Shown: positions 3,111 to 28,473 of the stretch, in pieces
Numbering within the stretch: the first letter of the stretch is position 1
Layout: the number at the start of each line of letters is the position of its first letter
NCBI GenBank assembly: GCA_001443495.1
Contig: LDXR01000015.1
Span: 1-64,000, forward strand
DNA length: 64,000 nucleotides
Direction of reading: 5' to 3'
Origin: a candidate division NC10 bacterium CSP1-5
GTDB lineage: Bacteria > Methylomirabilota > Methylomirabilia > Methylomirabilales > CSP1-5
Made by a program: the position numbers and the translations under genes
Notes under the pieces: model-generated
The model's input: only the letters and a program-made list of their open reading frames with translations
Told to the model about the DNA's origin: nothing
The model's database searches: none

Positions 3111-3111
3111 C

Positions 3112-5466: not shown

Positions 5467-5467
5467 T

Positions 5468-5491
5468 CCTTCGACTCCGCTCAGGACAGGC

Positions 5492-5492: not shown

Positions 5493-8464
<2,972 letters not shown>

Positions 8465-8486
8465 TGATTTTCCTGTCCCTCTCTTT

Positions 8487-8520
8487 CAATCCGAGATCCG
8501 AAATCGACAATCCGCAATTC
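8487..8520. repeat. Short intergenic repeat (CAATCCG / ATCCGAAATC type)
   Basis: The spacer between actA and actB is built from short related words: CAATCCGAGATCCGAAATC followed by GACAATCCGCAATTC. This resembles a second class of dispersed filler repeats common in metagenome-derived genomes. It touches the actA stop codon at 8519, as the other repeat touches the actB stop. No second copy was found in the window. Confidence 0.4.
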
Positions 8521-9037
8521 ACTTATGGCAGGTCCAGCAGTCGATGCTCGCCCTCCGCTCCATATGGCAACTGACACACCGATCCATGTTCACGACGACC
8601 ACCGCCTCGATCTGGTCCATCGTCTCGACCGGGCCGTGGCACGCCTCACAGGCGATTTCCTTCAGCACATGGCGCTTGTGGGAGAAACGGACAAAATCGG
8701 GCTGGTCGTAGACCCTCACCCATGGGATAGGCTCCTCCTTCTCCCAGTATTCCTTGAGCTTTTCTATGCCGGGTTTATCCGCTTTATCTTTATCGGCCGT
8801 GAGGCTCCGGTGGCAGCTCATGCAGCGCTGGACGGACGGGATTCCGGCGACCGCCGACCTCCGCGCATTGGCATGGCAGTACAGGCAGGGGATCTGGTTT
8901 TGGCCAGCGTGGATCTTATGGCTGAAGGCGATAGGCTGCTCCACCGCGTTCCCGCGGCCCGAGGCGGTGAGGAAGATGACCCCGACTCCGGCGGCCACGA
9001 GCAGCACCACGATCACGACAATGCGGACGCCCTTCAT
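8519..9037 (-). CDS. actA: Alternative complex III subunit ActA (pentahaem cytochrome c)
   Basis: A 172-residue protein with one N-terminal membrane anchor (residues 5-25) and exactly five CXXCH haem motifs: CLYCH 51-55, CMSCH 72-76, CEACH 130-134, CVSCH 154-158 and CWTCH 167-171. Further His residues (FSHKIH, FSHKRH) are positioned to act as sixth ligands. This pattern is diagnostic for ActA, the pentahaem subunit that takes electrons from the ActB Fe-S chain and passes them to cytochrome c. It is shorter than many ActA proteins, which often have longer N-terminal regions. The last haem motif lies one residue from the C-terminus. Confidence 0.93.
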   Translation of the reverse strand: MKGVRIVVIVVLLVAAGVGVIFLTASGRGNAVEQPIAFSHKIHAGQNQIPCLYCHANARRSAVAGIPSVQRCMSCHRSLTADKDKADKPGIEKLKEYWEKEEPIPWVRVYDQPDFVRFSHKRHVLKEIACEACHGPVETMDQIEAVVVVNMDRCVSCHMERRASIDCWTCHK

Positions 9038-9041
9038 TACC

Positions 9042-9404
9042 TTACTTTTTGGAAAAGGCCTTGATATACGCGATCACATCGTCCACGTCCTTATCCTTCA
9101 GCCTCGCTTGAAAAGAGGGCATCGGCTCCTTCCCTTCGATCACTACCTTTTTCAGATCCTCATCAGGTCGCTTGGCGAAAAACCCAGGATCCGAGTAATT
9201 GGCCGGCTTCTTCGACAACTCCTTCGCCTTGGGGCCATCTCCTTTCCCAGTCTCACCGTGGCACTTCAGGCACATCATCTTGTAGATCTTCTCCCCCTTG
9301 GCGAGATCGGCGGCCTCCCCGGGCCTGGCGAAGACGCTCCCCAACAGGCTGAGGGCAAAAAGCCCTCCCACAACGGCCCTGCTCCGCAAACTTCCCCGTA
9401 ACAT
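9042..9404 (-). CDS. Periplasmic mono-haem cytochrome c (class I)
   Basis: A 120-residue secreted cytochrome c. A signal peptide ends near PGEAAD, the haem motif CLKCH is at residues 45-49, and EPMPSF in the C-terminal third supplies the likely axial Met. The ATG at 9404 was chosen because a strong ribosome-binding site (AAAGGAGGT) lies 6 bases upstream; the longer reading from 9425 runs through that site. Four bases separate it from actA, so it is almost certainly co-transcribed and may be the soluble electron acceptor of the complex, shuttling to the haem-copper oxidases. This role is inferred from position. Confidence 0.88.
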   Translation of the reverse strand: MLRGSLRSRAVVGGLFALSLLGSVFARPGEAADLAKGEKIYKMMCLKCHGETGKGDGPKAKELSKKPANYSDPGFFAKRPDEDLKKVVIEGKEPMPSFQARLKDKDVDDVIAYIKAFSKK

Positions 9405-9426
9405 CGACAAACCTCCTTTCCGCAAC

Positions 9427-9626: not shown

Positions 9627-10382
9627 CTACCTTGGGGAGGAGTCAATGTCAAGGGACAATGAGAGTGGGCCCGCGCGACACTCGCTGGCAAAGGGGCACT
9701 CCACCGCCTCCTTGGGCCGTTCGGCGGTGCCATGGATCGTCAGAGGAGCGACACCGAGGAGGCGGCACTCCTCCCCGATAAAGGCCCGGAGCAACTTGGC
9801 CAATGCCCGGAAAGTTGAAGACACCGGCGCCCTCTCAACCCGTTCGGCAAACGGTTCAACCCATCCTCCGAGATGGTCCCTCAGGAACGCGGTCATGGCG
9901 GTGTGGGTTACCTCTTCAGCGTCGCGCATCCCCTCCCGGCGGGCGTACAGGAGCTTAAGGAGGAGGAGGCTCAGGAACTCCAGCTCGACCGCCAGATGGT
10001 CGGGAAGTTCCCGCTGAGCCGCCTCGACTGAGCTCGTCGCAGGCTCCCGGAGCTTGAACCCGAAGGCGGTATAGAAGCCCATGAGATCGGCGAGCTCGTG
10101 CCCTTTCCTTGCGGCCACAAGAGGGTCGTATTCCGTCTCGTAAGGGGAGATAACCCCTCCCGGTCCAAAGAGGCGCCAATACTCCCCCTCATCCGGGCCC
10201 TCCTGAATCTCCATCTCGACCAGGGGTGCGAGAACCTCCCGATGGCGCTCTGGAAGGCACCCGCATGCCTCTCGAAGTCGAGTGAACAACCCTGGATAAG
10301 GGATGGGGCCGGGAGGGGAGAACCCCAGGGAGAGGTACTTGAAGACCGAAGCTCGTGCAGCCCACTGCTCGATCCTCTCCAT
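9627..10382 (-). CDS. TorD/NarJ-family molybdoenzyme assembly chaperone (cassette 1)
   Basis: A 251-residue, mostly helical cytosolic protein. The family signature is visible in the middle: YETEYDPLVAARKGHELADL, then FYTAFGF and DHLAVELEFLSLL, which together are characteristic of TorD/DmsD/NarJ chaperones. These bind the signal peptide or apo-form of the catalytic subunit and hold it until the cofactor is inserted. A C-terminal CPFASEC pair may bind metal; a Cys pair also ends the cassette 2 chaperone. It follows the gamma-subunit gene with a two-base gap and is the last gene of cassette 1. Confidence 0.85.
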   Translation of the reverse strand: MERIEQWAARASVFKYLSLGFSPPGPIPYPGLFTRLREACGCLPERHREVLAPLVEMEIQEGPDEGEYWRLFGPGGVISPYETEYDPLVAARKGHELADLMGFYTAFGFKLREPATSSVEAAQRELPDHLAVELEFLSLLLLKLLYARREGMRDAEEVTHTAMTAFLRDHLGGWVEPFAERVERAPVSSTFRALAKLLRAFIGEECRLLGVAPLTIHGTAERPKEAVECPFASECRAGPLSLSLDIDSSPR

Positions 10383-10384
10383 CG

Positions 10385-11251
10385 TTAACCTCCTCCCGGA
10401 CGAAGATTCATTCGAACCCAGTCCACATACCCTTTGCGTGGACCGATCTCACCCTTTCCCCCGTCCCAGACGGCGAAGGCCACGAGCATCTCCTCACCAG
10501 GACCCCAGCTGGGATCGTTCGGGTCGCCGGTGACGAAAGGACGGGCGATGACGACCGTCCACTCCCCGTTGGCATAGACCCCTTTGCCGACCGCACTCTG
10601 GCGAGGGGTTGTCGTCACCGTTCCCGGTCCCTCGGCGATCTGCTCTTCCACCGAGACCCGCTTTTGAGGCTGGGAGCGCGGGTTGCCAAGGACCCACCCC
10701 GTCATGTACCGTTGCGCCTCGGGGTTGGTCCAAGCCGTGATGTCGTAGGGTGGCTCACCAGGGACGAATGGATACCAGTCCTCCCACGCATTGGGGTAGA
10801 GCTGAGAGATGTCCTGGAACGTCTTATCAATATCCTCCTGCCAGTCGGCCTTCCAGTGGAATTGCAGGACCGGTCTGCCCGGCTCTCCCATGGCGATGTC
10901 CGTCGATTCTTTCACCGGAACCATGACCGCTACGGCATCCCGGAATTTATCGAGATACATGACCACGTCCCTGGTGGCGTCCTTCCAGACAAGGAGGAAG
11001 GCGATCCATGTCCCGTTGTGGACGGCTTTGATTGTGAGCCCTTTGATGGAGGGGGCCAGGTGCCACGGTCTGACCTGGTCTTGCGGCTTGATGGTTGCCT
11101 GGATGGCCGGCACCCCCTCCCAGCCATTCCAGAGCGGATCCACTGGGATCATGCCCTTGATAAAGGGCGCGTCCAATTGCTGGGTCTCGCCCACCGCGGT
11201 TCCCAGCAGAAGGACAGCGATCCCGAGGGCAAGCTGAAATCTCGTCCGCAT
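10385..11251 (-). CDS. Periplasmic haem b gamma subunit of type II DMSO-reductase-family enzyme (cassette 1)
   Basis: A 288-residue secreted protein with a signal peptide (MRTRFQLALGIAVLLLG) and a beta-rich haem-b-binding domain like EbdC, DdhC, ClrC and NxrC. Typical landmarks are DPLWNGWEGVPAI, VRPWHLAPSI, SVHNG-like AVHNGTWIAFLL, KFRDAVAVMVP and a late AFAVWDGGKGEIG. Such subunits carry electrons from the beta subunit to periplasmic cytochrome c, so the enzyme faces the periplasm. The ATG at 11251 was preferred over the longer frame to 11491 because it begins with the signal peptide and has AAAGGGGG upstream; the extension overlaps the beta gene. Confidence 0.85.
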   Translation of the reverse strand: MRTRFQLALGIAVLLLGTAVGETQQLDAPFIKGMIPVDPLWNGWEGVPAIQATIKPQDQVRPWHLAPSIKGLTIKAVHNGTWIAFLLVWKDATRDVVMYLDKFRDAVAVMVPVKESTDIAMGEPGRPVLQFHWKADWQEDIDKTFQDISQLYPNAWEDWYPFVPGEPPYDITAWTNPEAQRYMTGWVLGNPRSQPQKRVSVEEQIAEGPGTVTTTPRQSAVGKGVYANGEWTVVIARPFVTGDPNDPSWGPGEEMLVAFAVWDGGKGEIGPRKGYVDWVRMNLRPGGG

Positions 11252-11305
11252 CAAAGTACCCCCTTTCCTCAATAAGCGCTCAGCCGAAACGTCACCCCCA
11301 CCGTT

Positions 11306-11328
11306 CCCTCCCCTTTCGAGGGGGAGGG
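11306..11328. other. Intercistronic hairpin between beta and gamma genes
   Basis: CCCTCCCC and GGGGAGGG form an 8-bp GC-only stem with a 7-base loop in the 88-base spacer between the beta and gamma genes of cassette 1. There is no T run, so it is more likely an mRNA-stability or processing element, or a mobile filler repeat, than a terminator. Confidence 0.4.
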
Positions 11329-11339
11329 TTGGGAGAAGG

Positions 11340-12476
11340 TTACGAAATATTGTGGCGGTAGACCTTCCGGGCGTCATCGTAGAACGGCCTGAGATAGTCA
11401 GGCTCGGTGAAGGGCACCCGGACGATCTCCCGCCCCTTCTTGTCGAAGCCCGCCGCCTCTCGGGCCTCCGGGAAGACGGTGAAGGTCTCAACGATCTCCT
11501 TGGTGTCGCCGAAGAGGTGGAGGAGGCCCAGCAGCTCCGGGTCGTCCTTCCCCTTCAGGTAGGTCTCGACGGCCTGATCGACCCCGGTCCCAAACATCTG
11601 GCGGAGGAACTCCCTTGGCACATTGACCGGGGGGATGTAATAGATGTTCCCCTCGAGGCCGACCTGGGGGTAGAGGGGGAGGGCCACTTTCTTCACGTAG
11701 ACCAGAAAGTCCATCGGGGCGTGGGGCTTGACCTCGTCAGGTTTTGAGAGAAACCCCATCAACCGGATCTTGCCGATGCAGGTGGTGACGCACCGAGGCT
11801 GCATCCCCTGCTCAACAGCCGGGTAGCAGCCGATGCACTTTTGGGAGATCCGGAGGACGGGGTTGAAGAGGACCTTCCCGTAGGGGCAGGCTTGAACGCA
11901 CTCCCGGTAGCCCCGGCAGCGGGTCTGGTCCACCAGGACGATCCCATCCTCCTCCCGCTTGTAGATGGCCTGCCGGGGGCACGAGGCGAGACACGCAGGG
12001 TAGGTGCAGTGCATGCAGATCCGTGGGAGGTAGAAGAACCACATGTCGTGGGTCGGCATGGTGAAGTAGGCACCCTTGTCGAGCGTGCCGGCCGCCTCGT
12101 CCTCCCCGGCGTTAGAGTGGGTCCAGTCGAGTTCCTCCTTCAGATAGCCGAGGACCTTCTCCCCCCGAGGGGCCGCCTCAAAGATCGTCTTCCCCACGTA
12201 CTTCTTCCCCTCCCACGGCTGAGGCCCCAGCTTCTCCAGGATCCTGACGTCCCACCCCATCGGGTAGCCGCCGTAGGGCTTGGTCTCCACGTTGTTCCAC
12301 TGCATGTACTCCTGCCCCTTCCCCACGGTCCAGGTGGTTTTGCAGGCCATGGTGCAGGTCTGGCAGCCGATACACTTGTTCAGGTCGAAGACCGCGGCGA
12401 ACTGCCGCTTCGGTCTGGCCCCCTCGTAGGGGTACTCCATCTGCCGCTCGATCTGCCAGTTATAGACGTTCGCCAT
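11340..12476 (-). CDS. Iron-sulfur beta subunit, NarH/NxrB-like (cassette 1)
   Basis: A 378-residue protein with the four cysteine groups of NarH/NxrB/DdhB subunits: CIGCQTCTMAC, CMHCTYPACLASC, CRGYRECVQAC and CIGCYPAVEQGMQPRCVTTC. The third group has Tyr where a fourth Cys would sit, the pattern that gives a [3Fe-4S] cluster (Trp in NarH). There is no signal peptide, so it would be exported together with the twin-arginine alpha subunit. It is about 50 residues shorter than the cassette 2 beta subunit; the shortening falls mainly between the first and second cluster groups. It lies three bases after the alpha gene. Confidence 0.9.
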   Translation of the reverse strand: MANVYNWQIERQMEYPYEGARPKRQFAAVFDLNKCIGCQTCTMACKTTWTVGKGQEYMQWNNVETKPYGGYPMGWDVRILEKLGPQPWEGKKYVGKTIFEAAPRGEKVLGYLKEELDWTHSNAGEDEAAGTLDKGAYFTMPTHDMWFFYLPRICMHCTYPACLASCPRQAIYKREEDGIVLVDQTRCRGYRECVQACPYGKVLFNPVLRISQKCIGCYPAVEQGMQPRCVTTCIGKIRLMGFLSKPDEVKPHAPMDFLVYVKKVALPLYPQVGLEGNIYYIPPVNVPREFLRQMFGTGVDQAVETYLKGKDDPELLGLLHLFGDTKEIVETFTVFPEAREAAGFDKKGREIVRVPFTEPDYLRPFYDDARKVYRHNIS

Positions 12477-12479
12477 CGC

Positions 12480-15400
12480 TTATCCCCTCCTGATGAAGAA
12501 GGCGCCCTTCAGGTAGCGCTTCACCGCTTTGTTCTCATAGGTCGGGCGGAAGCCGTGGGCCGCTGGGTGCCAGAGACCCTTTCCTCCGATCCCCCCCTCC
12601 TCGGCCTTCTGAATCTTCGCCATCGACTCTCTCGGTGCCCCGATCACCGTATGGACATCCGCCAGGAAGCCCTTGCCGATCAGCTGGCCGAAAACCTCCT
12701 TCCTCACCAATGAGTCGGTGGAGAGGGTCGGCCGGAGCCACGCCCGCGTCACGGACTGGTGGCTCCCATACCGGAACAAGGCCTGGTAATTCGTCGCCGG
12801 ATTCTTGGCCAAGCCGTCAGGCCTCGACTCGTGGCCTTTGACCGAGCCGTGGCTCGCCCCGTACATGTTGAACCACATCCGGACCACGCCACGTGGGGTG
12901 CCGGGGTAGTACCGGGCACGGCACATCATGCGGGAGACCTTGTACATGGCATCCCCGGGTTTCCAGCCCCGGTAGGGGCGGTCCTCGGCCCAGCCGTCCA
13001 CCCAGATGTAATCGCCGTCCTCGATTCCGAGGGCCTTCGCGTCCGCGGGGTTGATATCGGCGTACCCCTCAGCGAGGAACGGCATCCGCTTGTCCCGGCG
13101 GTAGACGTCACTGAAGGGTCCGAAGACCATGGCCAGGAAGTCCGTGTCGGTCCCCGTCGTGTGGGCACCGTGGCGGTACTTCGGGGTATGAAAGATAAAG
13201 GGGTAACCGGCCTTGACGAGCGGGCTCGGGTGCTTCTTGAGCACCTCCCAAGGCATCACCAGGGTCAAGACCTGGCGGACATCGGACTTGGCAAAATCCT
13301 GAGGCGAGATGCCGAACTGATCCGGCGGGATCGGCCGGACAGCCGGATGAGGTTTCGCCACGATGACGCTCGGCTGGTAGAAGGTCGCCTCCACCGGCTC
13401 CTTGTAGACCAAGAGGTTCTCCCCGAGGGTGATGAACTCGTCCTCCTCCCGGTAGAACTCGAGCCGCCCGGTCTTGGTGTACCAGGGCTTCGATTCGTTG
13501 GTCTGCTCCCACCCAGTCTGTCTTGGCGTCGTCCGGGTCATCATCAGGGTGGGAATCCCATCGCGGGCTCGCGTCTCCAGCTCCTCGAAGCGGTACCCTC
13601 TCGTCGCGTTGGAGCCGCTCAAGATCCGGTTGAGATACACCTCCACCCGCCCCTCGTGGACGAACCTCCAGTAGTCCAAGAAGCGCTTATCCCCGGTCAT
13701 CTTGGCAAGGACGGCGGAGATGCCCGCCGGCACCTCGACATCGGACCGGGTGTCGAAGAGCCTTGGGTGCGGCGTCCGCGGATAGACGGTGAGGAAGGGA
13801 TTCGTCACCGAGGCCGTCATGTCCGGGAATTTGAACTCGTTCCATGCATCGACCGGGAAGACGATGTCCGAGTACTCGCAGGTCATCGTCCACCACCACT
13901 CGCTGGTGGCCCAGAGCTCGATCTTCGGCAGCGTGTTGGCGATGACGTCGTAGGCCCCCTTGGCGTTTCCCAGGATCGAGTTGCTGTTGGTGACGAAGAC
14001 CGCCTTGGTGGGGGTCGGGATGTGGGTCTTTCCGGTGAACAGCTTCGTCCCCACCCTGAGAGGCCGATCACCGGCGTTATAGTAGTGGACCGACTCCCCC
14101 TTCCAGTAAAGGCGGGGGCGCGCCGGCTTGGTCAGGTCCAGCTCGATGTCGAACGGGTTTTCGCCAATGTACTGGGGGAGGCCGTTGAAGAGGGCGGCCC
14201 GGTAGTTTCCGGCGTAGCTCCCTACGTTTCCACCCTTCTGGCCGATATTGGCGGTCAGCGCCGCTACCAAGAAGATGGCGCGGTCCTTAAGGTCGGCGTT
14301 GAAGAACTGGTTGGGCCCCATCCCCACGGGGATCAGTGTCCTGGCCTTGTGCTTGGCGATCTCCCGGGCGAGGCTCACAATCGCGGCCTTCGGGGACCAC
14401 GTCATCTCCGAGACCTGATCGGGGGTAAAGTTCTCGTCCAGGTAGCGGCGCATCAGGGTAAAGAGCGGGGCAACTTTCACCTCCTTGCCGTCAGTGGTCT
14501 TGACGGTGAATTCCCCTTCGAGCGCCGGATCGAGACCCGCCCGGTCGAAGTGCTCGCCCACCTGATCGCGGGAGAGGGGCTTTGCGCCGCCGCTCTTCCG
14601 GTCCCACACCACGAGGTCCCCCCACTCTTTCCGAAGCCCCTCCGGAATGAGCTGCTTCTCCTGCAGGGCGAACGGCGGCGGGGCTTGGCCGGCCTTGAGG
14701 ACGGTGGTGAAGTTGGTGAGGTCGGCCGGCTGATAACCCGGGATCACCTCGCCGGCCCTCAGGAGCTTCAACGTGTCGAGGCGCACCAAGAGTGGCAGGT
14801 CGGTGAAGCGCTTGACGAAGGCCTCGTCGTAGCGCTTCTCGGCGATCAGGACCTGGGCCAGGCCCAAGGCGAAGGCGGGGTCGGTTCCCGGCCGGATGAT
14901 GATGACCTCGTCGGCCTTGGGGGCCGTGGCGCTGTACTCCACGGACACCACCACCACCTTGGTCCCCTTGAGACGCGCCTCGGTGAGCCAGTGGCTGTCC
15001 GGCATCTTCGTCGCGATCCAGTTCATCCCCCAGACGATGATGAGCCCAGCATGTTCCGCCGCGGACAAGTCGAAGTCCACCGTTTGCTGGCCGGTGACCA
15101 TGGGGTGACCGGGCGGCAGATCGGTGTGCCATGAGTAGTTATCCCACCCGCGGGCGCCCAGGGCCTTGTCGGGGCCAGCCTTGCGAATGTGGCTGTCCAG
15201 AAGGGCGAGGGCATTTCCGAAGCGGTAGTGGCCGTAGATCCGGGTGGCGCCCAGGAGCGGCATCCCGCCACGGACCTTCACCGTCTGGGTGCCGGCTCCC
15301 TGGGTCGCCTCCACCATGGCGGGGTCGTACCCCTGGCCGGTGAGGAGGGCCTGGCCCGCCTCGCCGCTGTAGGTCGTGGCGATGTTCACCAGCCCCTTCG

Positions 15401-15944
15401 CCGCCACCTCCAGCGCCCGATCCCATGAGACCTTCACCCACTCGTCGGTACCGCGCTGGAAGAACTCAGCCGGAGGCCGGCCATCGGCATCACGGGGAAA
15501 CCCCTGCTCCACCCATTTGAGGAATCCCCGTCTCACCATCGGGGCCTTTACTCGGCGATCGCCATAGAAACGGCGCATCATGGTGAGCCCCTTCTGGCAG
15601 CAGCGAGGCTCCCACCGGTGCGTCGCTTTGTTTCCATACAGGTCCGTAGCCTTGCCGTAGCCGTAGGTGGGCTCGATCCTGACGATCACGCCATTTCTGA
15701 CATAGGCTTCCAGGAGGCAGTTGTGGGTATCGTTGGGGGCGCAGAGAAAGACGAACTTCGAATCGTGCCGCCAGATGTCCCGGTAGACAAGCTCCCAGTC
15801 CCGGCTTGGATAGTGGGCCAAGGGGTTATCGACCTTGACCGGCTCCAGGAACTGACCGAACGCCTCTTCAACATCGTAAAGGGAGGCTGTCGTGGCTCCA
15901 ACCGTGATGAACTTGAGGAAGTCACGCCTGCTCAACTGACCCAT
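12480..15944 (-). CDS. Molybdopterin catalytic alpha subunit, type II DMSO-reductase family (NxrA/NarG-like, cassette 1)
   Basis: A 1154-residue protein with a twin-arginine signal (SRRDFLK, residues 5-11), so a periplasmic enzyme. The N-terminal cluster motif is C68-x3-D72-x3-C76 with C115 or C116 later; the middle ligand is Asp where NarG has Cys. HTDLPPGHP with D275 aligns with the Asp that ligates molybdenum in NarG, which places it in the Asp-ligated type II group (nitrate, nitrite, chlorate, selenate, DMS, ethylbenzene enzymes). The substrate cannot be told from sequence: it is clearly diverged from the cassette 2 paralogue and need not be a nitrite oxidoreductase. A strong ribosome-binding site (GAGGAGGGA) precedes the ATG. 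Confidence 0.88.
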
Positions 15945-16290
15945 CGTGTCCCTCCTCGCGACGCGGATGCGTCACGTCGTGATTGCGAGCGCGGCCTCGC
16001 TGCCATCCGCAGGGAGAACTCCGATCTGTCGGGAAGTCTGGTCGCGTGACCTGCAGGGCGGTGGCCTCCTTTTCGTGCTTAGAGCCCTGAGGGCAGCTTC
16101 GTGGAGACGGTGTTGCCGTGGGAATCGGCGTGCATGGGGAAGCAATGGGGGTGCCACTTTCCCCCCGCCGAGAGTTTCGAACCGTGATACAGGAATGCCT
16201 CAGGGCATCTTTTCGCGTGGCGTTCATCAGCTTTTTTCTCAAGAGGATCGCGCATGAGACATTGCTGTCTCATGGGACGGAGATTTCCAG
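15945..16290. other. 346-base intergenic region between the two cassettes, with an inverted repeat at 16253-16274
   Basis: No supported gene is seen. Near the 3' end of the cassette 2 gamma gene lies a perfect 9-bp inverted repeat, CATGAGACA-TTGC-TGTCTCATG (16253-16274). It lacks an adjoining T run on either strand, so it could be an operator or a rho-assisted terminator. The promoter of cassette 1 should lie in this region, upstream of the alpha gene at 15944, but I see no strong -35/-10 pair on the minus strand. Confidence 0.4.
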
Positions 16291-17916
16291 CTATCGCCCC
16301 TTCTCAATCTGCAGGCGCTGCCAGACCGAAACCGTCTTCTGTCCATCCCGATCCCCCTGGGCGCCGTCCCAGACCGCAAAGGCCACGGGGAGGGACTGGC
16401 CCGGAGTAAATTGCGTATCCCGGTCGCCCTGCGACTGCATCTCCCTCACCATGACGACCCGCCACTTCCCTCCCTTCCAGATCCCGCGCCCCTGCACGTT
16501 CTGGTCCTCTGTGGGTTGGGATGTCAGCGTGCCGAAGCCCAAAGCGTTCAGGTCCTCCACTGATGAGCGGCGATTTGGGGTCGAGAGAAGGTTGCCGGCT
16601 CCCCAGCCAGTGAGGAACGTCGAATCGTGGGAAGCCGTCGGTGCCTTCACCTGGGCGGTGACCGAGCTTCCTGGGGGGGCGGTTTGATTAAAGGGGTAAA
16701 GGTCAGCCGCCATTCCAGCGTAACGGTCCTGGAGATCCCGGTACCGTTGCAGGTCGGCTTCCCAATCCGCCTTCCAGTGCCAGATGTTGACCGGGCCGTG
16801 CTGATCCCCCATGGTGAAGGAGGGTTCCGGGTGGCCTGCGCCGTGAACCTCGGCCATCGCGACGGGGAATTGAACGGCGACGGCGTCCCGGAAGTCCTGT
16901 GACCGTAATACATCCTGATTGATGATCGAATCATCCCACTCCAGGAGAAATGCGATCTGCTTTCCGTTGTGGACGGATCTCACCCTCACCTCTTCGACCG
17001 GTTGCTTGCGGATCCAGAGCGGTTCGAGGTGGACCCGGACAAAAGGAATCTTCGACCACGCCACGGCAAAGGGGTCGAGGGGGAGACTGCCCGGCACGAA
17101 CCTCGAGACGACGGTCCCGGGCTGGCTCGGGGCCGGCTCCGTCAAGGGCGCTTTCGCCAAGGAGAGGGTGTAATAGGCGAGGGCCCACGTCTCTTCCGGC
17201 GTGAGGGAGTCACCGTACGCGGGCATCGGGGTGCCGCCGATCCCCACCTGAAGTGTCCGGTAGACATCCTGCACGGTGGAACCACGTTTCATACGCCCGG
17301 GAACCGTAAAGTCGTACGGGACGATGGAGTACCCCCATTCGTCCTTCAACGTGGCGGCGGAGGGGCCATCCCCCTTGCCGGAGAGCCCGTGGCAGTCGAA
17401 GCAACCGGCCTCTTTGTAGAACTTCTTCCCGAGGGCCAGCAGTCCGGGGCTCCGCGGTGGCGCCTTCGGGATCGCCACCGGATCTCCGGGGCTCTGTGCC
17501 TGGAATACCGGCGAAAGACTCTTGATGTAGGCCACCACCGCCCACCGGTCCTGCTCGGTGAGGGCGGCCCAGGAGGGCATCGACGTCCCGGCGATCCCAT
17601 TGGTGATGCTGTTGAACAGGTCCTGATCGGTCGGCAAGGTCATCGTCGAGTGGATCTTGAACCGGCCGCTGGTGAAGTCCCTCGGCTTCGGGTAGAGGAG
17701 ATACGCGGCAGACCCGTCCCCCCGCCCATCCGTTCCGTGACAGACGGCGCATTTCTTTTCATACAGTGCTTTGCCCTCAGCGAGGATTTCTGGGGTTGCT
17801 TGCGCCTTCTCCCCCGCGGTGGCCGATAGGATCCCGTGCATAGCGAACCCGGCCAAGGTAAAAACCAACGCCATCCCGATCCCCCTCCAGACCTTGGCTC
17901 CCCTCTTCGCGTCCAT
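16291..17916 (-). CDS. Fused di-cytochrome c / haem b gamma subunit (NxrC-like, cassette 2)
   Basis: A 541-residue secreted or anchored protein (hydrophobic segment about residues 12-30) combining three domains: cytochrome c with CAVCH at 56-60, cytochrome c with CFDCH at 171-175, then a haem-b gamma domain (about 270-541). The last domain shares the motifs of the cassette 1 gamma subunit (DPFAVAWSKIPFVRVHLEPL, SVHNGKQIAFLLEWDDS, DFRDAVAVQFP, AFAVWDGAQGD). The fusion would let electrons pass from haem b to two c haems in one polypeptide. The ATG at 17916 shares a base with the chaperone stop codon (TAATG), a strong sign of coupling; a longer start at 17946 is possible. Confidence 0.88.
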   Translation of the reverse strand: MDAKRGAKVWRGIGMALVFTLAGFAMHGILSATAGEKAQATPEILAEGKALYEKKCAVCHGTDGRGDGSAAYLLYPKPRDFTSGRFKIHSTMTLPTDQDLFNSITNGIAGTSMPSWAALTEQDRWAVVAYIKSLSPVFQAQSPGDPVAIPKAPPRSPGLLALGKKFYKEAGCFDCHGLSGKGDGPSAATLKDEWGYSIVPYDFTVPGRMKRGSTVQDVYRTLQVGIGGTPMPAYGDSLTPEETWALAYYTLSLAKAPLTEPAPSQPGTVVSRFVPGSLPLDPFAVAWSKIPFVRVHLEPLWIRKQPVEEVRVRSVHNGKQIAFLLEWDDSIINQDVLRSQDFRDAVAVQFPVAMAEVHGAGHPEPSFTMGDQHGPVNIWHWKADWEADLQRYRDLQDRYAGMAADLYPFNQTAPPGSSVTAQVKAPTASHDSTFLTGWGAGNLLSTPNRRSSVEDLNALGFGTLTSQPTEDQNVQGRGIWKGGKWRVVMVREMQSQGDRDTQFTPGQSLPVAFAVWDGAQGDRDGQKTVSVWQRLQIEKGR

Positions 17917-18683
17917 TAGTCTTCCTCCCTTGGCTCGACGGCGCACAGATCGTCCATTCCACAGGAGAAGCAGCCCCCTTCAGGCTCCTGGGGAATTGGC
18001 CTGACATCTCCCTCGTGAAACTGAGCAGGGTTCACCGCGATCCGCCGGCATTCGGCGGTGATGAACGCCTCCAGGGACGAGCCCACAGACCGATAAAAGC
18101 CGTCCGAAGCCTTCCGACTCAGGAGCTGCGCAAAGAGGGGGGCCCAGCACCCGAGGTGCTCCTCCAGAAACTTCCGCTGGGCATCACGGCAGATCGAGGC
18201 CTTCTCTTCCCCGTGGTGGGTCAATGCATAGGCCTCCTTAAGGGTTAGAAAGCTCATGAACTCCAGTTCGACGGCGATGTGGTCGAGCCGCTCCTTGGCC
18301 CGGTCCGACACCTCGACGCCGAAGGCCCGGTAGAAACCGGCAATGTCACCTAACCGCTGGGCCTGCTGAAAGACGTGGGCGCTGCCGTATTCGGTCTCGT
18401 AGGGAGGACATTCCTGCGAGATGGTATGGCCGAAAATCTGCCGATATTGCCCCTGAAGAGCGTCCAGGGACAAGTCGTGCGAGGCCATGGCCGTCAACGC
18501 CTCCTGTGCTCCGTCACCATCGAGGAGGGCCGGGAGGATCGGGCGTAGCTCAGAGATGCTTTCTTTCGTAATGCCCGAAGGGAACGCGTCATTCGGGTAG
18601 AGGAGGGCAGCCGAGAGGAGCCGATAGACGTGACTCCGCGTTATCGCTTCGTGAATCGCCTGTTCAGTTATTTTCCCCGCCAT
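17916..18683 (-). CDS. TorD/NarJ-family molybdoenzyme chaperone (cassette 2)
   Basis: A 255-residue helical protein with the family core ECPPYETEYGSAHVFQQAQR, FYRAFGVEV and DHIAVELEFMSFL. It is paralogous to the cassette 1 chaperone, sharing the same order of motifs. The C-terminus carries CFSCGMDDLC, a likely metal or cluster site. It would mature the cassette 2 alpha subunit before Tat export. It lies about 110 bases after the beta gene and is coupled by TAATG to the downstream gamma gene. Confidence 0.87.
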   Translation of the reverse strand: MAGKITEQAIHEAITRSHVYRLLSAALLYPNDAFPSGITKESISELRPILPALLDGDGAQEALTAMASHDLSLDALQGQYRQIFGHTISQECPPYETEYGSAHVFQQAQRLGDIAGFYRAFGVEVSDRAKERLDHIAVELEFMSFLTLKEAYALTHHGEEKASICRDAQRKFLEEHLGCWAPLFAQLLSRKASDGFYRSVGSSLEAFITAECRRIAVNPAQFHEGDVRPIPQEPEGGCFSCGMDDLCAVEPREED

Positions 18684-18793
18684 GCGTCAAGTCCTCCGAG
18701 GGCGTTGTCATTTCGATGTATCGACCTGCGGTCGCCTCTCCGGTCTGGCCACAGCGGACGCGGCATGAACGGGAGGATCGGTGTCTGCCTCAT

Positions 18794-20083
18794 TTAGATA
18801 GAGTTCGGATGCTTCGCGGGCCGTGTATAGACCGGTTCCTCCACCGTGAGGCGCGCAACCTCTGTACCGTTTTTGTCAAAGCCGATGACCGTATCGTTGT
18901 ACATGCTCCAGGGCTTACCGTTGATCTCTGTTTCGAAGACCTTCTTGCCTTCGACGATTTCGTAGCGGAAGATGATCTTCTGGGTCGACCGGAAGAGCTG
19001 GAGAACGGCCAGCAGCTCTCGGGACGGGGCCATGTATTTGTTGACAGCGTCGTCTGCCCCGGGACCGAACATTTGCCGCAGATATGCGCGGGGAACCCAC
19101 CGGGGCGGCATATAATAAATGTTCGGCTCGGTCCCAAACTGCGGATAGAGGGGCAGGGCGACCTTTTCCACCTTGACCAAGAAGTAGAGGGGATTTGCCC
19201 GATCACCGGCCCAGTCTCCGGTGGTCTGGTCGATCCGGGCCAGGCCCTGGAGTCGGATCTTGCCCACGCAGGCGGCCATGCAGCGCGTTTCGATGGGGAC
19301 GCCGTCGGGGGTGATGTGCGGGTCCTTCCCTTCGATGCGCGGGTAGCAGGCGACACATTTTTCGCTGACGCGCGTGGTGCCTCGGTACATCGCCTTCTTG
19401 TAGGGACACCCCTCGACGCACTTTTTGTACCCGCGGCACCGCGACTGATCGATCAGGACCACCCCGTCCTCCTGTCGCTTGTAAATCGCCTTCCTCGGGC
19501 AGGCCGCAAGACAGCCGGGATAGGTGCAGTGGTTACAGATCCGCTGGAGGTGGAAGAACCACGTCTTGTGTTCCGGGAGCGAGACCCCCTCCTTGCTGAA
19601 CCCCATGCGGTCCCCTTCGTACGGCGGCGCGGTATCCTCGAAAATGTTGGGGGCCCGCCACTCCTCGTCACCGGGGATGTACCCGAGCGCCCGGGTGTGC
19701 CCCTCCGGCCCGTATCGTTTGACGGCCGCCTCGAAGATGGTCATCCCCTCAAAGACGCCGTAGGGCCTCTGTGCTCCATCCTTCTGGGAGGGATCCCAGG
19801 CGGCCTCGCGTCCCTCGCGCTGGTGGGCCTCGTCGAGCAGTTGCAGCAGCTTCATGTCCCAAAACTGGGGGTAGCCGCCGTACGGCTTGCTTTCGACGTT
19901 GTTCCACCACATGTATTCCTGGCCCTTGGAAAACGTCCAGGTACTCTTGCAGGCCATGGTGCAGGTCTGGCAACCGATGCAACGATTGGTATTGAAGACG
20001 GCGGCGAACTGCCAGCGGGGATGCCGTTCCTCGTACGGGTAGTGCATCTTTCGGCCGAGCTGCCAGTTGTAGACCGTGGGCAT
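18794..20083 (-). CDS. nxrB: Nitrite oxidoreductase-like beta subunit (cassette 2)
   Basis: A 429-residue Fe-S protein that reads like the periplasmic-type NxrB of Nitrospira/anammox bacteria from the first residues (MPTVYNWQLGRKMHYPYE) and has the length usual for that group. Cluster groups: C35-IGC-QTC-TMAC45, CNHCTYPGCLAAC, CRGYKKCVEGC (Tyr in place of one Cys) and CVACYP...CMAAC. It relays electrons from the molybdenum subunit to the haem gamma subunit. There is no signal peptide; export by hitch-hiking on the Tat-targeted alpha subunit is expected. It follows the 91-residue small gene by 24 bases. Assignment as nitrite oxidase versus nitrate reductase is inferred from overall resemblance. 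Confidence 0.88.
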   Translation of the reverse strand: MPTVYNWQLGRKMHYPYEERHPRWQFAAVFNTNRCIGCQTCTMACKSTWTFSKGQEYMWWNNVESKPYGGYPQFWDMKLLQLLDEAHQREGREAAWDPSQKDGAQRPYGVFEGMTIFEAAVKRYGPEGHTRALGYIPGDEEWRAPNIFEDTAPPYEGDRMGFSKEGVSLPEHKTWFFHLQRICNHCTYPGCLAACPRKAIYKRQEDGVVLIDQSRCRGYKKCVEGCPYKKAMYRGTTRVSEKCVACYPRIEGKDPHITPDGVPIETRCMAACVGKIRLQGLARIDQTTGDWAGDRANPLYFLVKVEKVALPLYPQFGTEPNIYYMPPRWVPRAYLRQMFGPGADDAVNKYMAPSRELLAVLQLFRSTQKIIFRYEIVEGKKVFETEINGKPWSMYNDTVIGFDKNGTEVARLTVEEPVYTRPAKHPNSI

Positions 20084-20107
20084 CGCCTTCCTCCTTGAAA
20101 AATTGGA

Positions 20108-20383
20108 TCAAGGCTCCCGAGGGCTGTCCGTCCCTGGAACGCTCCACCGCGATCGCATTTCCTCGATCAAGGCCCTGACGTACTGCTCTCCCTTCTGCTG
20201 GTAAATGCGATGGGTGCCGGCGTAGAACGGGCTCTGGAAGAGAGAGAAGAGATGCGCGTCGTCGAGCCCCATCTTGACGAACTCTTCAACGATACACGCT
20301 GCCATCTCCTCGACATCCCCGTCGGGCAGGGCCGTACCGACTAGCTCCATCGGATCGTCATCTTCAAACGGCTTTTCCCCCAT
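20108..20383 (-). CDS. Small acidic protein between alpha and beta genes, unknown function
   Basis: A 91-residue soluble protein without Cys, signal peptide or membrane segment, acidic at the N-terminus (MGEKPFEDDDPMELVG) and helical in the middle (MAACIVEEFVKMGLDDAHLF contains its only Cys). The sentence LFQSPFYAGTHRIYQQKGE suggests a folded domain. I do not recognise the family. Its position, 23 bases after the alpha gene and 24 before the beta gene, with coding-like composition, makes it a real operon member. A role in assembly or maturation of the alpha-beta pair is a guess from context. Confidence 0.7.
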   Translation of the reverse strand: MGEKPFEDDDPMELVGTALPDGDVEEMAACIVEEFVKMGLDDAHLFSLFQSPFYAGTHRIYQQKGEQYVRALIEEMRSRWSVPGTDSPREP

Positions 20384-20406
20384 TGCCCTCTTCCTCGTGT
20401 TTGGGC

Positions 20407-23400
20407 CTAGCGTTTCTTGATCTGGACAATCTCCCCTGCCAGGTAGCGCTTCATGAAGTCGCTTTCGTTCCCGGGTGTGAACCCCGTCCGGGCGGGCTCC
20501 CAGATTCCTTTGCCGCGCATCCCTCCGTCCTCCGCTTTGGTGACCTTGACCAGCGTCTCCTTGGGGACGGTGTTGAGGGCATGGTTGTCTGCCTCCCCGC
20601 CGAAGAGAAAGCTCATGGTCGCCTTGGCCTTGTGGAAGAGGGTGTCGGTCTGATGCATCGGCATATGCCAGTTGCGGGTAAGGGATTGCTGGGAGCCGTA
20701 CCGAAGATTGGCCTGGTAGCCGGTTTCGGAGAGGGCCAGGCCGTCGGGCCGGGTCTCGTGTGCCTTGACGGTCCGCTCCGTTGCGATATAGGGGGCATGC
20801 TTCATCATCACCACCTGGTAGGGATAGGCCGGGTTGTACCTCACCCGAACCATGCAGCGGCTCACTCGGTAGAAGGGGTCGCTCGGCTTCCAGCCGATGT
20901 AGGGACGATCGGCCGGGTTAGCATCCAGGTAGACGTAGTCGCCGTCATTGATGCCGAGGTCCTTGGCCGCCTGGGGGTTCATATGCAGCTGGTGATCGCC
21001 CACGCCGGGCATCCGCTTGTCCATCCGGTACGGATCGCCGAAGTTCGAATCCCAGATCTGGTTCCAGTCACACACCGACCACTGCGAGTGGACCCGGTGA
21101 CGGGTCTTGGGAGTCAGGAAGAAGAACCGGTAGCCTTTCTCCCACAGGGGGTTCGTGGTCCGCTTCGCGTCGGCCCACGCCATCTTGATGTTCCGGACCG
21201 TCCGCTCGTCCCAATGCATCGCATCCGGCGAGATGCCGTAGTCCTCGGGACGGATATACGGGTTCGTACTCACGATGACGTTGGGAAGATACGGGGTCGC
21301 CTCCGGGCCCTCCCGCTGCACGATGAAGTTTTCGCCGTACTCGATGGCCTCGGGGATGTCGCAGTAGGCGTGGAGCCTCCCCGTGTCGGTGTAGAAGGGG
21401 TCGCTGTCGTGGACCTGCTCCCAGAAGGGGACCCTTGGATAGGTCCGGAAGAGCATCAGGCAGGCGCCGGGCTCTCCGTACTTGCCGGCCATGATCTCGT
21501 CGACCCGATAGCCCGCGGTCGTGGAGGAGGTGTCGAGGAGCTTCTGGATGTAGACCTCCGGCCTTCCTTCGAGGGCGAAGCGCCAGTACGCCGCGAACCG
21601 GTGGTCGTTGACGATCGCGCCGAGCTTCTGGGCCAACTCGGCCAGGATGGTCACATCGTCCTTGCTGTCGTAGAGGGGCTTGATGCCCCCTTTCCAAATC
21701 TGGAGGAAAGGGTTGGAACAGGAGGCGGTGATCTCGGGGGTCTGGAATTCCATCCAGGAGTTGGCCGGCAGGGCGAAGTCGGCATACTCGATGGAGGCGG
21801 TCATCTCGATGTCCACGGAGATGATCATCTCCACCCGGGGATTGACGTTCTTCAGCATTTCGTAGACATGCTTGGCGTTGTTAATCAGGTTCACGTTGTT
21901 GAAAAACATCACCTTGGTGGGCGTAGGCATGTGGGTCAGCCCGGTGAACACCTTCCGGCCGTACTTGGGCGTGTTGACGATCAGCGGCAGATCCCCGTGG
22001 TTCCAGTAGGCCGGCTCCTCGTCCTTGGTGTACCCCTTCACCTTAACCGCCTGGCCCGGGGCATTCGGATCGAGGTTGGGGTTAAAGGGATCCTCCGCGA
22101 CCCACCCCTTGAAGCCGGGCCCACTCCAGGAGGATCCCTGGAAGAGGGCCGCCTTGTAATTCCCCGCCCAGGTATGGGAGCCCGCTCCCGGGACCCCGAT
22201 GTTGCCGGTGAGCATCAAGGGGAGGTAGAAGGCCCGGTTAGACAGGGTGGCGTGGAACCAGTGGTTGATCCCCTCGCCGATATGGATGGCCACCGGCTTG
22301 ATGGTGGCGATGTCCCGGGCGAGCCGCTGGATGAGCTCCTTCGGGGAATGGGTGATCTCGTGGACCGTGTCGAGGTCGTAGTCCTTGAGATGAATTGTGT
22401 ACATGGCCCACAGGGTCATCGCCTCGACCTCGGTCCCATCTGCGAGTTTGACCTTCCCCTGCCAATCGAGGGTCGGGTCGGTTCCCTGCTGGGCGAGCCT
22501 GTCACCTACGTCTTCTCTAGTGAGGGGCTTCAGGCTTTGGCTTTTTGCATCGAAGACAACAAAGTCCCCGAGCTTCTCGTACTGCTCCTTCGTGAGACCC
22601 TGGATCGTGAAGCTGGGGCCGTTCTCGGGCAGCCGCCCGCGATATCCCGGGAAGACCTCGTGGGCCCTGAGCCGTTTGAGGGTGTCCGTCCGGACAAGGA
22701 GCGGGAAATCGGTGAAGCGCTTCACGAAGGCCGCGTCGTAGTGCCTCTCCTCCATGAGAATTTTGGTGAGGCCCAGGAAGAGGGCGGTATCGGTGTTGGG
22801 GCGGATCGGGATCCAGTAGTCGGCCTTGGCGGCCGGAGGGCTGTATTCTGGCGTGATAACCACGATCTTCGCCCCGCGCTCCATCAGCTCGTTAAAGAAA
22901 TGGGACTCGGGCATCTTGTTCTCGATCAAGTTTTTCCCGCACTGGATGTGGAGCTTCGAGAAGCGGAAGTCGTTAAGGTCGACGTCGGACCCCTGCAACC
23001 CATGGGAGTAAGGATGGCCCGGCGCCTGATCGCCGTGCCAGGTATAGTTCGACCAGGTCCGGCCGCCGAGCGCCTGATCGGGTCCCACGCCCCGGACATG
23101 GACATCCAACAGGGCCAGCGTGTTGGCAAAGCGGTACATGCCATACTTTCCGATCACGCCCAGAAGGCCCATACCGCCGCGGCACTTGAAGGTCCGCGTC
23201 CCCGCCCCGTGCGTCTCTCGGATCATCTCCTCCGGGTATCCTTGCTCGCGCAGGCGACGCACGCCCTCTTCGCCGCTATAGCGCCTGGCAATCTGGATCA
23301 TCCCCTTCGCAATGTACGAGTACGCGTCGTCCCAGGAGATTCGCATGAGTTCGTCCGTGCCCCGACTGTCGAACCTGTACTTGGTCTTGTTTGCGGGCGT

Positions 23401-23850
23401 CAGGTCGGGGAAGCCGTCGTCGGCCCACCGCTTCCAGCCTTTACGGACCAAGGGGTATTTCACCCGGTAGGGACCGTAGACCCTTCGGTGCAACGTGTAT
23501 CCCTTGAGGCATCCCCTCGGGTTCCAGTGGGGGGTTGCCTTGTTGCCGTAGAGGTCGGCGTAGCGGCTGACGTCGTAGTTCTGCTCGATCCGCATCACCA
23601 CGCCGTTTCGGACATACGCCCTCAGTCGGCAGGCATGCGTATCGTTGGGCGAGCAGACGAAGGTAAACGTGCGATCGTAGCCGTACTGATCCCGGTAGAT
23701 CCGTTCCCACCCTCGATCCGGGTACTCCGAGAGGGGATTGCCCACCTCGACGGCGGGCTGGAGCAGCCGGAGAGCCCAGGCGTCATCGGCGAGGAAGGCG
23801 GTGGCACCGGTCGCGGCCGCTTTCAGAAAAGTCCTGCGGGTGATTTCCAT
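20407..23850 (-). CDS. nxrA: Nitrite oxidoreductase-like molybdopterin alpha subunit (cassette 2)
   Basis: A 1147-residue periplasmic-type catalytic subunit with a twin-arginine signal (TRRTFLK, residues 4-10). The N-terminal cluster motif is C66-x3-D70-x3-C74 with C114 later, Asp replacing a Cys as in cassette 1. TWHGDQAPGHP places the molybdenum-ligating Asp at D274. Segments such as GKNLIENKMPESHFFNELM resemble what I recall of Nitrospira and anammox NxrA, as does the length. It would oxidise nitrite to nitrate in the periplasm, or run in reverse as a nitrate reductase; sequence alone cannot fix the direction. AAAGGGGGATG precedes the start. It is separated by 91 bases from the metalloprotease gene. 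Confidence 0.88.
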   Translation of the reverse strand: MEITRRTFLKAAATGATAFLADDAWALRLLQPAVEVGNPLSEYPDRGWERIYRDQYGYDRTFTFVCSPNDTHACRLRAYVRNGVVMRIEQNYDVSRYADLYGNKATPHWNPRGCLKGYTLHRRVYGPYRVKYPLVRKGWKRWADDGFPDLTPANKTKYRFDSRGTDELMRISWDDAYSYIAKGMIQIARRYSGEEGVRRLREQGYPEEMIRETHGAGTRTFKCRGGMGLLGVIGKYGMYRFANTLALLDVHVRGVGPDQALGGRTWSNYTWHGDQAPGHPYSHGLQGSDVDLNDFRFSKLHIQCGKNLIENKMPESHFFNELMERGAKIVVITPEYSPPAAKADYWIPIRPNTDTALFLGLTKILMEERHYDAAFVKRFTDFPLLVRTDTLKRLRAHEVFPGYRGRLPENGPSFTIQGLTKEQYEKLGDFVVFDAKSQSLKPLTREDVGDRLAQQGTDPTLDWQGKVKLADGTEVEAMTLWAMYTIHLKDYDLDTVHEITHSPKELIQRLARDIATIKPVAIHIGEGINHWFHATLSNRAFYLPLMLTGNIGVPGAGSHTWAGNYKAALFQGSSWSGPGFKGWVAEDPFNPNLDPNAPGQAVKVKGYTKDEEPAYWNHGDLPLIVNTPKYGRKVFTGLTHMPTPTKVMFFNNVNLINNAKHVYEMLKNVNPRVEMIISVDIEMTASIEYADFALPANSWMEFQTPEITASCSNPFLQIWKGGIKPLYDSKDDVTILAELAQKLGAIVNDHRFAAYWRFALEGRPEVYIQKLLDTSSTTAGYRVDEIMAGKYGEPGACLMLFRTYPRVPFWEQVHDSDPFYTDTGRLHAYCDIPEAIEYGENFIVQREGPEATPYLPNVIVSTNPYIRPEDYGISPDAMHWDERTVRNIKMAWADAKRTTNPLWEKGYRFFFLTPKTRHRVHSQWSVCDWNQIWDSNFGDPYRMDKRMPGVGDHQLHMNPQAAKDLGINDGDYVYLDANPADRPYIGWKPSDPFYRVSRCMVRVRYNPAYPYQVVMMKHAPYIATERTVKAHETRPDGLALSETGYQANLRYGSQQSLTRNWHMPMHQTDTLFHKAKATMSFLFGGEADNHALNTVPKETLVKVTKAEDGGMRGKGIWEPARTGFTPGNESDFMKRYLAGEIVQIKKR

Positions 23851-23941: not shown

Positions 23942-24862
23942 TCAACGCGTCCCCTGGCAGACGGTATATCCTTCCACGCATCGCTCGCACGCGCCGAGCT
24001 CCGGTTGCCATTCCGGAAAGTCACACTGGATCAGTTCCACCAGCGGGAGCGGGATCTCTCCGCTTCCCTGTCGGAAGGACCGGGAGGGGAAGCGGCAGAG
24101 CGGGCAGCGGGAGCCCGGGAGCGAACGAATGGTCCCCTCCCACGCCTCGAAGAGGGCTCGACCCGGCTCGGTCGCCATTTCCAAGAGTTGCGGGTGCGAT
24201 GGCCGGGGCATGTCCCAGGTTCGTCTAAAGGCCTTCTCCAGCAAGGGAGCGGGAACTCCCCGGTACTGGGCCTCGAACTCCGCCCGGCGTTGGGCCTCGG
24301 CGGCGACCGTCTCGCGCCCAGCCTGGATGAGGCGGCTATCGATGGTGATGTCCCACAACAGGCGGTAGCGATCTCGAACGAGCGGCTCCTCGGCTAGGTG
24401 GATCCCGGGAATCCCCTCGGTGTGCTCATAGGCGAAGGTCGGATCCAGCACATCGCTCAGGTGGGTCAGCTCGTGGCGGAGGAGTCGGGTGAGACTGAGC
24501 GGGTCAAGAAAGCGACGAGGGAGCAGGCGGAGGATCGCTGCGGTCCGCCCTGGAAACTGCAGGTCGGCCCCTTCATCCCTAGCGCCCGGGGCCCGCACGA
24601 CCCACAGGGTCTGGATGTGCTCGCGAAGCTCGGGAAACTCCGTGAAGGCCGCTTCGATCGGCGCCGCAAGATTCCACCGGCGGAACAGGCGTCGGTGGAT
24701 CTGCTGGAAAGCCTCCTCACGCGCGGCGAGGTCGAGGCGGTATGCGGCATCGGTGAGGGCGTGGTACTCGTGGGTAAAGTGCAAATCACCGGTCGCCTCG
24801 CGTTCCTGGATCAGCGCCGAGACAACCGCATCGAGGAGGACCGGCTCATACCGAATCTGCAT
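23942..24862 (-). CDS. Putative zinc metalloprotease with C-terminal zinc-ribbon, unknown family
   Basis: A 306-residue soluble protein. HELTH at residues 130-134 is a zincin-type HExxH motif placed in a helix (LTRLLRHELTHLSDVLD), followed about 40 residues later by WDITIDSRLIQ, where a third ligand could lie. The C-terminus has paired cysteines, CPLC (253-256) and CERC (292-295), plus C280 and C302, as in a zinc ribbon. I do not recognise a named family. Its start overlaps the Rrf2 regulator by 17 bases, and the nxrA-like gene follows 91 bases later, so regulator, protease and enzyme are probably one unit. Maturation or quality control of the molybdoenzyme is plausible but unproven. Confidence 0.75.
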   Translation of the reverse strand: MQIRYEPVLLDAVVSALIQEREATGDLHFTHEYHALTDAAYRLDLAAREEAFQQIHRRLFRRWNLAAPIEAAFTEFPELREHIQTLWVVRAPGARDEGADLQFPGRTAAILRLLPRRFLDPLSLTRLLRHELTHLSDVLDPTFAYEHTEGIPGIHLAEEPLVRDRYRLLWDITIDSRLIQAGRETVAAEAQRRAEFEAQYRGVPAPLLEKAFRRTWDMPRPSHPQLLEMATEPGRALFEAWEGTIRSLPGSRCPLCRFPSRSFRQGSGEIPLPLVELIQCDFPEWQPELGACERCVEGYTVCQGTR

Positions 24863-27748: not shown

Positions 27749-28473
27749 GGCCTTCTATCCTCCGGCTCACCGCTGATCGCTGACAGCCGAGCGCTGCTGC
27801 TCTGCGGGGAGGGCCAGGTGCGCTTCAGCCATGCCTCGTAGTCGTCGGCGGAGTGGACGGTGAGGTGCCCCACCATGCCTGAGTGCCCGAATCCGCACAG
27901 CTCAGCGCAAGGAATTTCGTACACCCCGGGCTTGGTGGCTTCAAACCAGGCCTCGATCTCTCGGCCCGGTACGACATCCTGCTTCAGGCGCAGGTTGGGG
28001 AGAAAGAAGCTGTGGATCACATCCTTCGATTTCAGGGTCACGCGCGCGACCTTACCGACGGGGACGTGTAACTCGTTGTCCAATTGCAAATCATCCGCCG
28101 TCCCGAACTGCCCGTCCGGCCCAGGATAGAGGATCTCCCAATTGAACTGCTTGGCGGTCAATTGGACCCGGACATCAGCAGGGGGCATGTGGCCCTTGAC
28201 CGCCTCCCAGACCTCCGCCCCACGAAAGTCGATCCAGAGATCCAGTCCCAAAACGATCACCACTGGAACGAGAATCCAGGCGCTCTGGTCTAAGGTGTTT
28301 CCATGGACGTAGGTGGCCGGGCGGCCTTCGCGGCGGCGATACAGGAAGAGGAACAGGACAATGGTTCCAAGCGTAAGGAAAAACCAGGCCCCGGTGATGT
28401 AATAGATCAGATACAGAATGGAGTCGATATCTCCACCGTAAGTAGAGACATTCTCGGGAAGCCAACTCAGCAT
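27745..28473 (-). CDS. ctaC: Cytochrome c oxidase subunit II with CuA site, copy 1
   Basis: A 242-residue protein with two N-terminal helices and a periplasmic cupredoxin domain. The CuA ligands sit in CAELCGFGHSGM (Cys, Glu, Cys, His, Met) with an upstream His in KDVIHSFFLPNLRLKQD. The ATG at 28473 was chosen because GGAG lies 8 bases upstream and the protein then begins MLSWLPENVSTYGG as in copy 2; a longer frame to 28572 lacks a ribosome-binding site. There is no fused cytochrome c domain. The C-terminal tail (SSARLSAISGEP) is encoded by a GCTGA-type repeat, apparently captured into the coding sequence. Confidence 0.92.
   Translation of the reverse strand: MLSWLPENVSTYGGDIDSILYLIYYITGAWFFLTLGTIVLFLFLYRRREGRPATYVHGNTLDQSAWILVPVVIVLGLDLWIDFRGAEVWEAVKGHMPPADVRVQLTAKQFNWEILYPGPDGQFGTADDLQLDNELHVPVGKVARVTLKSKDVIHSFFLPNLRLKQDVVPGREIEAWFEATKPGVYEIPCAELCGFGHSGMVGHLTVHSADDYEAWLKRTWPSPQSSSARLSAISGEPEDRRP

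Follow-up and report, generated by a model that had tools for sequence, protein, structure and literature searches.

What does a bacterium gain from two related molybdoenzymes encoded head to tail beside an ACIII operon? The question is raised by the window studied here, a stretch of 64,000 nucleotides of contig LDXR01000015.1 from the NC10 bacterium CSP1-5. A reading of the sequence alone had proposed that two complete cassettes of Asp-ligated type II enzymes lie there next to ACIII, serving either two related oxyanions or a forward and a reverse reaction. The arrangement is not a new one: Versantvoort et al. 2018 (PMC6094997) described two nar operons of CSP1-5 (XU15_C0015 genes 10-13 and 14-18) with the gene order and the Nar-like/Nxr-like split seen in the window, as well as two oxidases on the same contig. 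In that work gene 13, the alpha subunit of our cassette 1 (alpha1), grouped with NarG, and gene 18, the alpha subunit of cassette 2 (alpha2), with NxrA of Nitrospina, Nitrospira and anammox bacteria. Both operons having been published for this genome, the present find is a rediscovery; what we add to PMC6094997 is a firmer and different placement of cassette 1, together with comparative support for opposite directions of the two enzymes.

The two cassettes follow each other head to tail, all their genes being on the minus strand (Table 1), and each has a full set of alpha, beta, gamma and chaperone genes, ordered alpha-beta-chaperone-gamma in cassette 2 and alpha-beta-gamma-chaperone in cassette 1. 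The neighbouring ACIII is complete as well, a single operon comprising the pentahaem ActA, ActB, the NrfD-like ActC and ActF, ActD and a monohaem ActE. Further along the window come another oxidase, a cytochrome b of the b6 type and a cytochrome that has eight c-haem motifs. Judged by their strong full-length family matches, the ORFs of the locus are genuine members of their families and not chance ORFs. The gene coordinates of the sequence-only reading agree with these matches, as does its account of two complete cassettes next to ACIII, with the exception of a long gamma1 ORF beginning at 11491. This ORF overlaps beta1 and is regarded as an over-call; the start at 11251, which yields 288 residues with a signal-peptide-like beginning, is the most likely one.

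Table 1. Features of the nitrite/nitrate locus of CSP1-5 (positions in the window)
Feature	Position	Strand	Evidence and remarks
ACIII operon ActA-ActF	1875..9037	-	ActD PF11821 2.4e-40; QrcB/QrcC-type ActB; NrfD domains in ActC and ActF; five CXXCH in ActA
Monohaem cytochrome c, between cassette 1 and ACIII	9042..9425	-	PF13442 3.3e-15; one CXXCH
Cassette 1 TorD-like chaperone	9627..10382	-	PF02613 3.6e-14
Cassette 1 gamma, 288 aa, EB_dh haem-b domain, no c-haem	10385..11251	-	105 bits to 7b04_C, ligand Met and Lys aligned
Cassette 1 beta, FeS subunit, 378 aa	11340..12476	-	PF13247; TIGR03478 2.7e-80
Cassette 1 alpha (periplasmic NAR/NXR-like), 1154 aa, twin-arginine motif, Mo ligand Asp275	12480..15944	-	969 bits to 7b04_B; sister clade to NXR 100/100
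Cassette 2 gamma (NxrC-like), two c-haem sites and EB_dh haem-b domain	16291..17946	-	Start probably 17916; 146 bits to 7b04_C
Cassette 2 TorD-like chaperone	17916..18683	-	PF02613 2e-23; TIGR03482 1.3e-32, below the TIGR03482 cut-off
Cassette 2 beta (NxrB), FeS subunit, 429 aa	18794..20083	-	630 bits to 7b04_A
Cassette 2 alpha (NxrA), 1147 aa, twin-arginine motif, Mo ligand Asp274	20407..23850	-	1960 bits full length to 7b04_B; NXR clade 100/100; ligands
306-aa protein, HExxH motif and CxxC pairs	23942..24862	-	No Pfam or NCBIfam match; conserved NXR neighbour
aa3-type oxidase COX1 and COX2, upstream of cassette 2	26012..28572	-	PF00115 7e-146; PF00116 1.7e-17

Cassette 2 poses little difficulty. 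By its sequence it is a periplasmic nitrite oxidoreductase (NXR) of the anammox/Nitrospira/Nitrospina type, as had been supposed. In our tree alpha2 falls into one clade with the NxrA of Kuenenia and with Nitrospira-type NxrA, drawn from across the phylum, with support of 100/100. The alpha and beta subunits match Kuenenia NXR (7B04, PMC8387239) over their full length, and gamma2 matches it in its haem-b part, where alignment pairs both haem-b ligands, Met and Lys, of 7b04_C. The residues named for the Kuenenia enzyme, namely Asp275 at the molybdenum, Asn70 at the substrate and the FS0 ligands C67/D71/C75/C115 (PMC8387239), are all kept in alpha2 when aligned at positions 67, 70, 71, 75, 115 and 275, including the 3Cys/1Asp set of FS0. 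The protein begins with the twin-arginine motif TRRTFLK, from which its export is predicted. CSP1-5 differs from the Kuenenia system in being aerobic by gene content and in having two c-haems fused into gamma2. The EB_dh haem-b domain is common to gamma1 and gamma2 and the N-terminal part with two c-haem sites belongs to gamma2 only, which bears out the earlier remark that the domain make-ups differ. This two-haem part (long-ORF residues 52-265) is similar to chain 6h5l_B, the structure of a diheme cytochrome of the Kuenenia type (185 bits).

What, then, is cassette 1? Its gene content and head-to-tail position are those one would expect of a recent duplicate of cassette 2, and this origin is nevertheless refuted: the two alpha subunits, described from the outset as similar in length and clearly diverged, share 45% identity over their full length, belong to separate clades (100/100) and have their nearest relatives in other lineages, at 85% for alpha1 (L042) and 75% for alpha2 (L025). 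In the tree the clade of cassette 1 is sister to NXR with support of 100/100, and E. coli NarG, haloarchaeal pNarG and a chlorate-reductase-type protein lie outside both; the tree was built without SerA, PcrA, DdhA, EbdA, Nitrotoga and Hydrogenobacter sequences, and the relation of cassette 1 to the last two is taken from published work. The analysed set holds 98 proteins of the cassette-1 clade, 50-85% identical to alpha1, from taxa that include Rokubacteria, Acidobacteria, Planctomycetota, Chloroflexi, Omnitrophota, Bipolaricaulota, Thioploca, Parabeggiatoa and a haloarchaeal plasmid; the protein of Parabeggiatoa 4572_84 and that of locus L062 are both placed inside it. Starting from two short patterns, 420 loci of this clade were confirmed, spread over many phyla.

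The molybdenum Asp, which confirms the Asp-ligated type II assignment for both enzymes, is kept throughout the cassette-1 clade, as are the substrate Asn and the 3Cys/1Asp ligation of FS0. The residues beside the molybdenum ligand differ, T-D-L in the cassette-1 clade and G-D-Q in NXR, the Leu being found also in NarG, pNarG and the Clr-type protein, and 19 positions in all are fixed differently between the two clades. The outcome that would have spoken against two distinct enzymes, a single clade with identical active-site residues, is not what we find.

Our placement departs from that of PMC6094997, whose tree put cassette 1 with the NarG subunits of denitrifiers, whereas we find a periplasmic-type enzyme sister to NXR. 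Against a canonical cytoplasmic-type NarGHI, alpha1 shows about 26% identity to E. coli NarG, over half its length, and has Cys and Asp in FS0 where NarG has His and Cys. It also carries the twin-arginine motif SRRDFLK at its start, is accompanied by an EB_dh-type gamma subunit in place of NarI, and belongs to a group with NXR that excludes both E. coli NarG and haloarchaeal pNarG (100/100). We consider the identification with denitrifier NarGHI very improbable. By these comparisons cassette 1 represents a separate clade, sister to NXR, and both a recent duplication and a canonical NarG are rejected.

The same position, sister to NXR, has been reported for the nitrate reductases (NAR) of Beggiatoa, Hydrogenobaculum and Hydrogenobacter and for the NXR of Nitrotoga (PMC8387239, PMC6050957), which share with cassette 1 twin-arginine export, a soluble haem-b gamma subunit and an operon of alpha, beta, gamma and chaperone genes. 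In organisms known to reduce nitrate, proteins of this sister clade have been described as nitrate reductases, the Hydrogenobacter enzyme having been functionally characterised (PMC6050957).

Could cassette 1 act on a different oxyanion or substrate, such as chlorate, selenate, arsenic or sulfur species, which would give the organism two different substrates? The sequence does not reveal the substrate, and His534 of NXR, a column that holds His in NarG too, is replaced by Asn in cassette 1. Against this stand the conservation of the substrate Asn and the molybdenum Asp across the whole cassette-1 clade and the scores of alpha1, which gives 199 bits with perchlorate reductase and 157 with ethylbenzene dehydrogenase compared with 969 for NXR (with both alphas as queries, 199-222 for PcrA, 152-157 for EbdA and 969-1960 for NXR). 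No chlorite dismutase was present among the Pfam-annotated genes of the window. We regard a different substrate as improbable.

The two cassettes might also be imagined as partners in one complex. This idea was rejected, since no NXR turned up in the majority of genomes that carry the cassette-1 type, and NXR occurs in many Methylomirabilota that lack cassette 1. Among 50 genomes picked for a cassette-1-type alpha, only three (G112, G099, G122) had a full NXR-type alpha too, which indicates that the cassette-1 type is an independent enzyme.

The neighbourhoods of the two types suggest in which direction each might work. A cytochrome b and multihaem cytochrome c module lies directly upstream on the same strand in 21 of the 55 cassette-1-type loci with at least 4 kb of upstream sequence and in 0 of 19 NXR loci (Fisher p = 8e-4), while an aa3-type COX1 flanks three of 20 NXR loci and none of 65 of the cassette-1 type (p = 0.01), both p values overstating the case because of the kinship among the loci and the use of the window's own proteins as probes. 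A homologue of the 306-aa gene was found at 9/17 NXR loci with enough flank and 0/38 cassette-1-type loci. This protein, with its HExxH motif and conserved CPLC/CxxC pairs, adjoins NXR cassettes in several phyla, was not found beside Nitrospira NXR, and is possibly a maturation protein. Taken on sequence, gene context suggests opposite directions for cassettes 1 and 2; of the two options left by the sequence-only reading, it favours the forward/reverse pair over two oxyanions. Nitrate reduction is our best guess for cassette 1, on account of this context and of the reported function of the Hydrogenobacter NAR (PMC6050957).

A competing view would make both cassettes NXRs of different affinity or condition, cassette 1 being Nitrotoga-like and a reversed ACIII providing the quinol that the Calvin cycle needs. 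The nitrite oxidiser Nitrotoga also possesses ACIII; its NXR belongs to the sister clade, and it depends on a single, presumably bidirectional ACIII (PMC6050957). The known molybdenum-, FS0- and substrate-binding residues are common to both alphas, and RuBisCO is present in the CSP1-5 genome. The resemblance to Nitrotoga fails in the motif, which is Q-M there (PMC6050957) and Q-T in almost all cassette-1-type alphas, with Q-M in no protein of our set, a class-wide draw of Gammaproteobacteria included. The companions of the cassette-1 clade, moreover, are bc/multihaem genes and not oxidases. We hold two NXRs to be unlikely, if still the most serious rival to an opposed pair.

Relatives of the locus show that the two types recur together. 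In a Planctomycetota MAG (G122, contig 92) they share a strand and are separated by about 12 kb, and in a Chloroflexi MAG (L067/L157) an NXR beta and chaperone precede a cassette-1-type alpha, so that the two types are closely linked in at least three phyla, with differing internal layouts. Other Methylomirabilota with both types have them on different contigs, which may hide linkage. Comparable cases are known from Planctomycetota MAGs with Nxr-type and Nar-type genes, the latter upstream of an ACIII-like cluster, and from Nitrocaldera with its two Nar/Nxr types (PMC10732223). These share with CSP1-5 the occurrence of two enzyme types in one genome and, for the Planctomycetota, the ACIII-like linkage; their Nar type, however, is the canonical NarGHI/Nitrobacter-side cluster, whereas both CSP1-5 enzymes are on the periplasmic NXR side.

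The closest relatives of cassette 1 (L041, L042 and L045, 84-85%) come from MAGs labelled Nitrospirae, Rokubacteria and Acidobacteria, and a cassette-1-type alpha was found in none of the six other genomes of the window's genus; near relatives in other phyla and this absence together make horizontal transfer likely. In cassette 2, over positions 16291-24862, the same-genus locus L202 (G009) is closest in beta (82%), gamma (73%) and the 306-aa gene (73%), and its alpha is only 64% identical to alpha2, another family's alpha being closer at 75%. These identities suggest an exchange of the catalytic subunit within an otherwise orthologous NXR operon.

Several loci deserve mention in their own right. 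Three from Gammaproteobacteria, the class of the Thioploca MAG (L183, L184 and L185; G522, G850 and G628), encode NXR-clade alphas 57-62% identical to alpha2. A MAG labelled Nitrospira japonica (L053, DYJL01000008.1) carries a cassette-1-type enzyme; within its family the NXR query found matches in only three of 37 genomes, none of them a true NXR, and the label looks wrong. Plasmid 2 of Natronococcus occultus SP4 (L186, 8001-11183) has a cassette-1-type alpha of 50% identity in a region with no listed gene, with the adjoining beta and chaperone genes listed. In the Parabeggiatoa MAG (L100, 4780-8900) the alpha and beta genes are not adjacent and lie about 4 kb apart.

How might the pieces fit together in CSP1-5? 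On balance, and with moderate confidence, we favour a periplasmic nitrite/nitrate cluster in which cassette 2 would act as an NXR towards aa3 and cassette 1 as a nitrate reductase fed through ACIII. Electrons from nitrite oxidation would most likely flow towards the neighbouring aa3 oxidase along the haem b and the fused pair of c-haems in gamma2; cassette 1 would most likely be a periplasmic nitrate reductase receiving electrons from quinol by way of ACIII, the small cytochrome c and haem b of gamma1. Family, cofactor ligands, twin-arginine motifs, separate clades and gene linkage are read from the sequence, and the scheme adds to them a probable substrate, direction and electron partners. 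Assigning each enzyme a fixed direction could prove mistaken, since NXRs catalyse both directions in vitro (PMC8387239). It also counts against the scheme that the bc-type module does not adjoin cassette 1 in the window: ACIII and the small cytochrome c do, and the b-type/multihaem module of CSP1-5 is about 24 kb away on the opposite strand. Only one other clear case of ACIII beside a member of the cassette-1 clade was found (L045).

The genome of CSP1-5 was reported to have no recognised nitrite reductases and to interconvert only nitrate and nitrite (PMC6094997). In our searches of the genome no NirK match rose above the cut-off, and matches to the NirS domain family were all short, covering about 100 positions, which, with the RuBisCO, agrees with that account. 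One might go further and see in CSP1-5 a non-denitrifying Calvin-cycle methylotroph whose two opposed periplasmic enzymes form a nitrite/nitrate redox switch, NXR being paired with aa3 and the sister-clade reductase with ACIII, which would replace the cytochrome b/multihaem module used elsewhere. We offer this more specific picture tentatively, at somewhat less than even confidence.

Given the lack of recognised nitrite reductases (PMC6094997), nitrate production or consumption by bacteria of the CSP1-5 type would depend on this pair of enzymes. In surveys, members of the sister clade can pass for NXR or for NAR. The markers of the clade, T-D-L against G-D-Q and an upstream cytochrome b/multihaem module against a neighbouring aa3 oxidase or 306-aa gene, offer a simple way to separate the two types, along with a testable prediction of the direction in which each would run.
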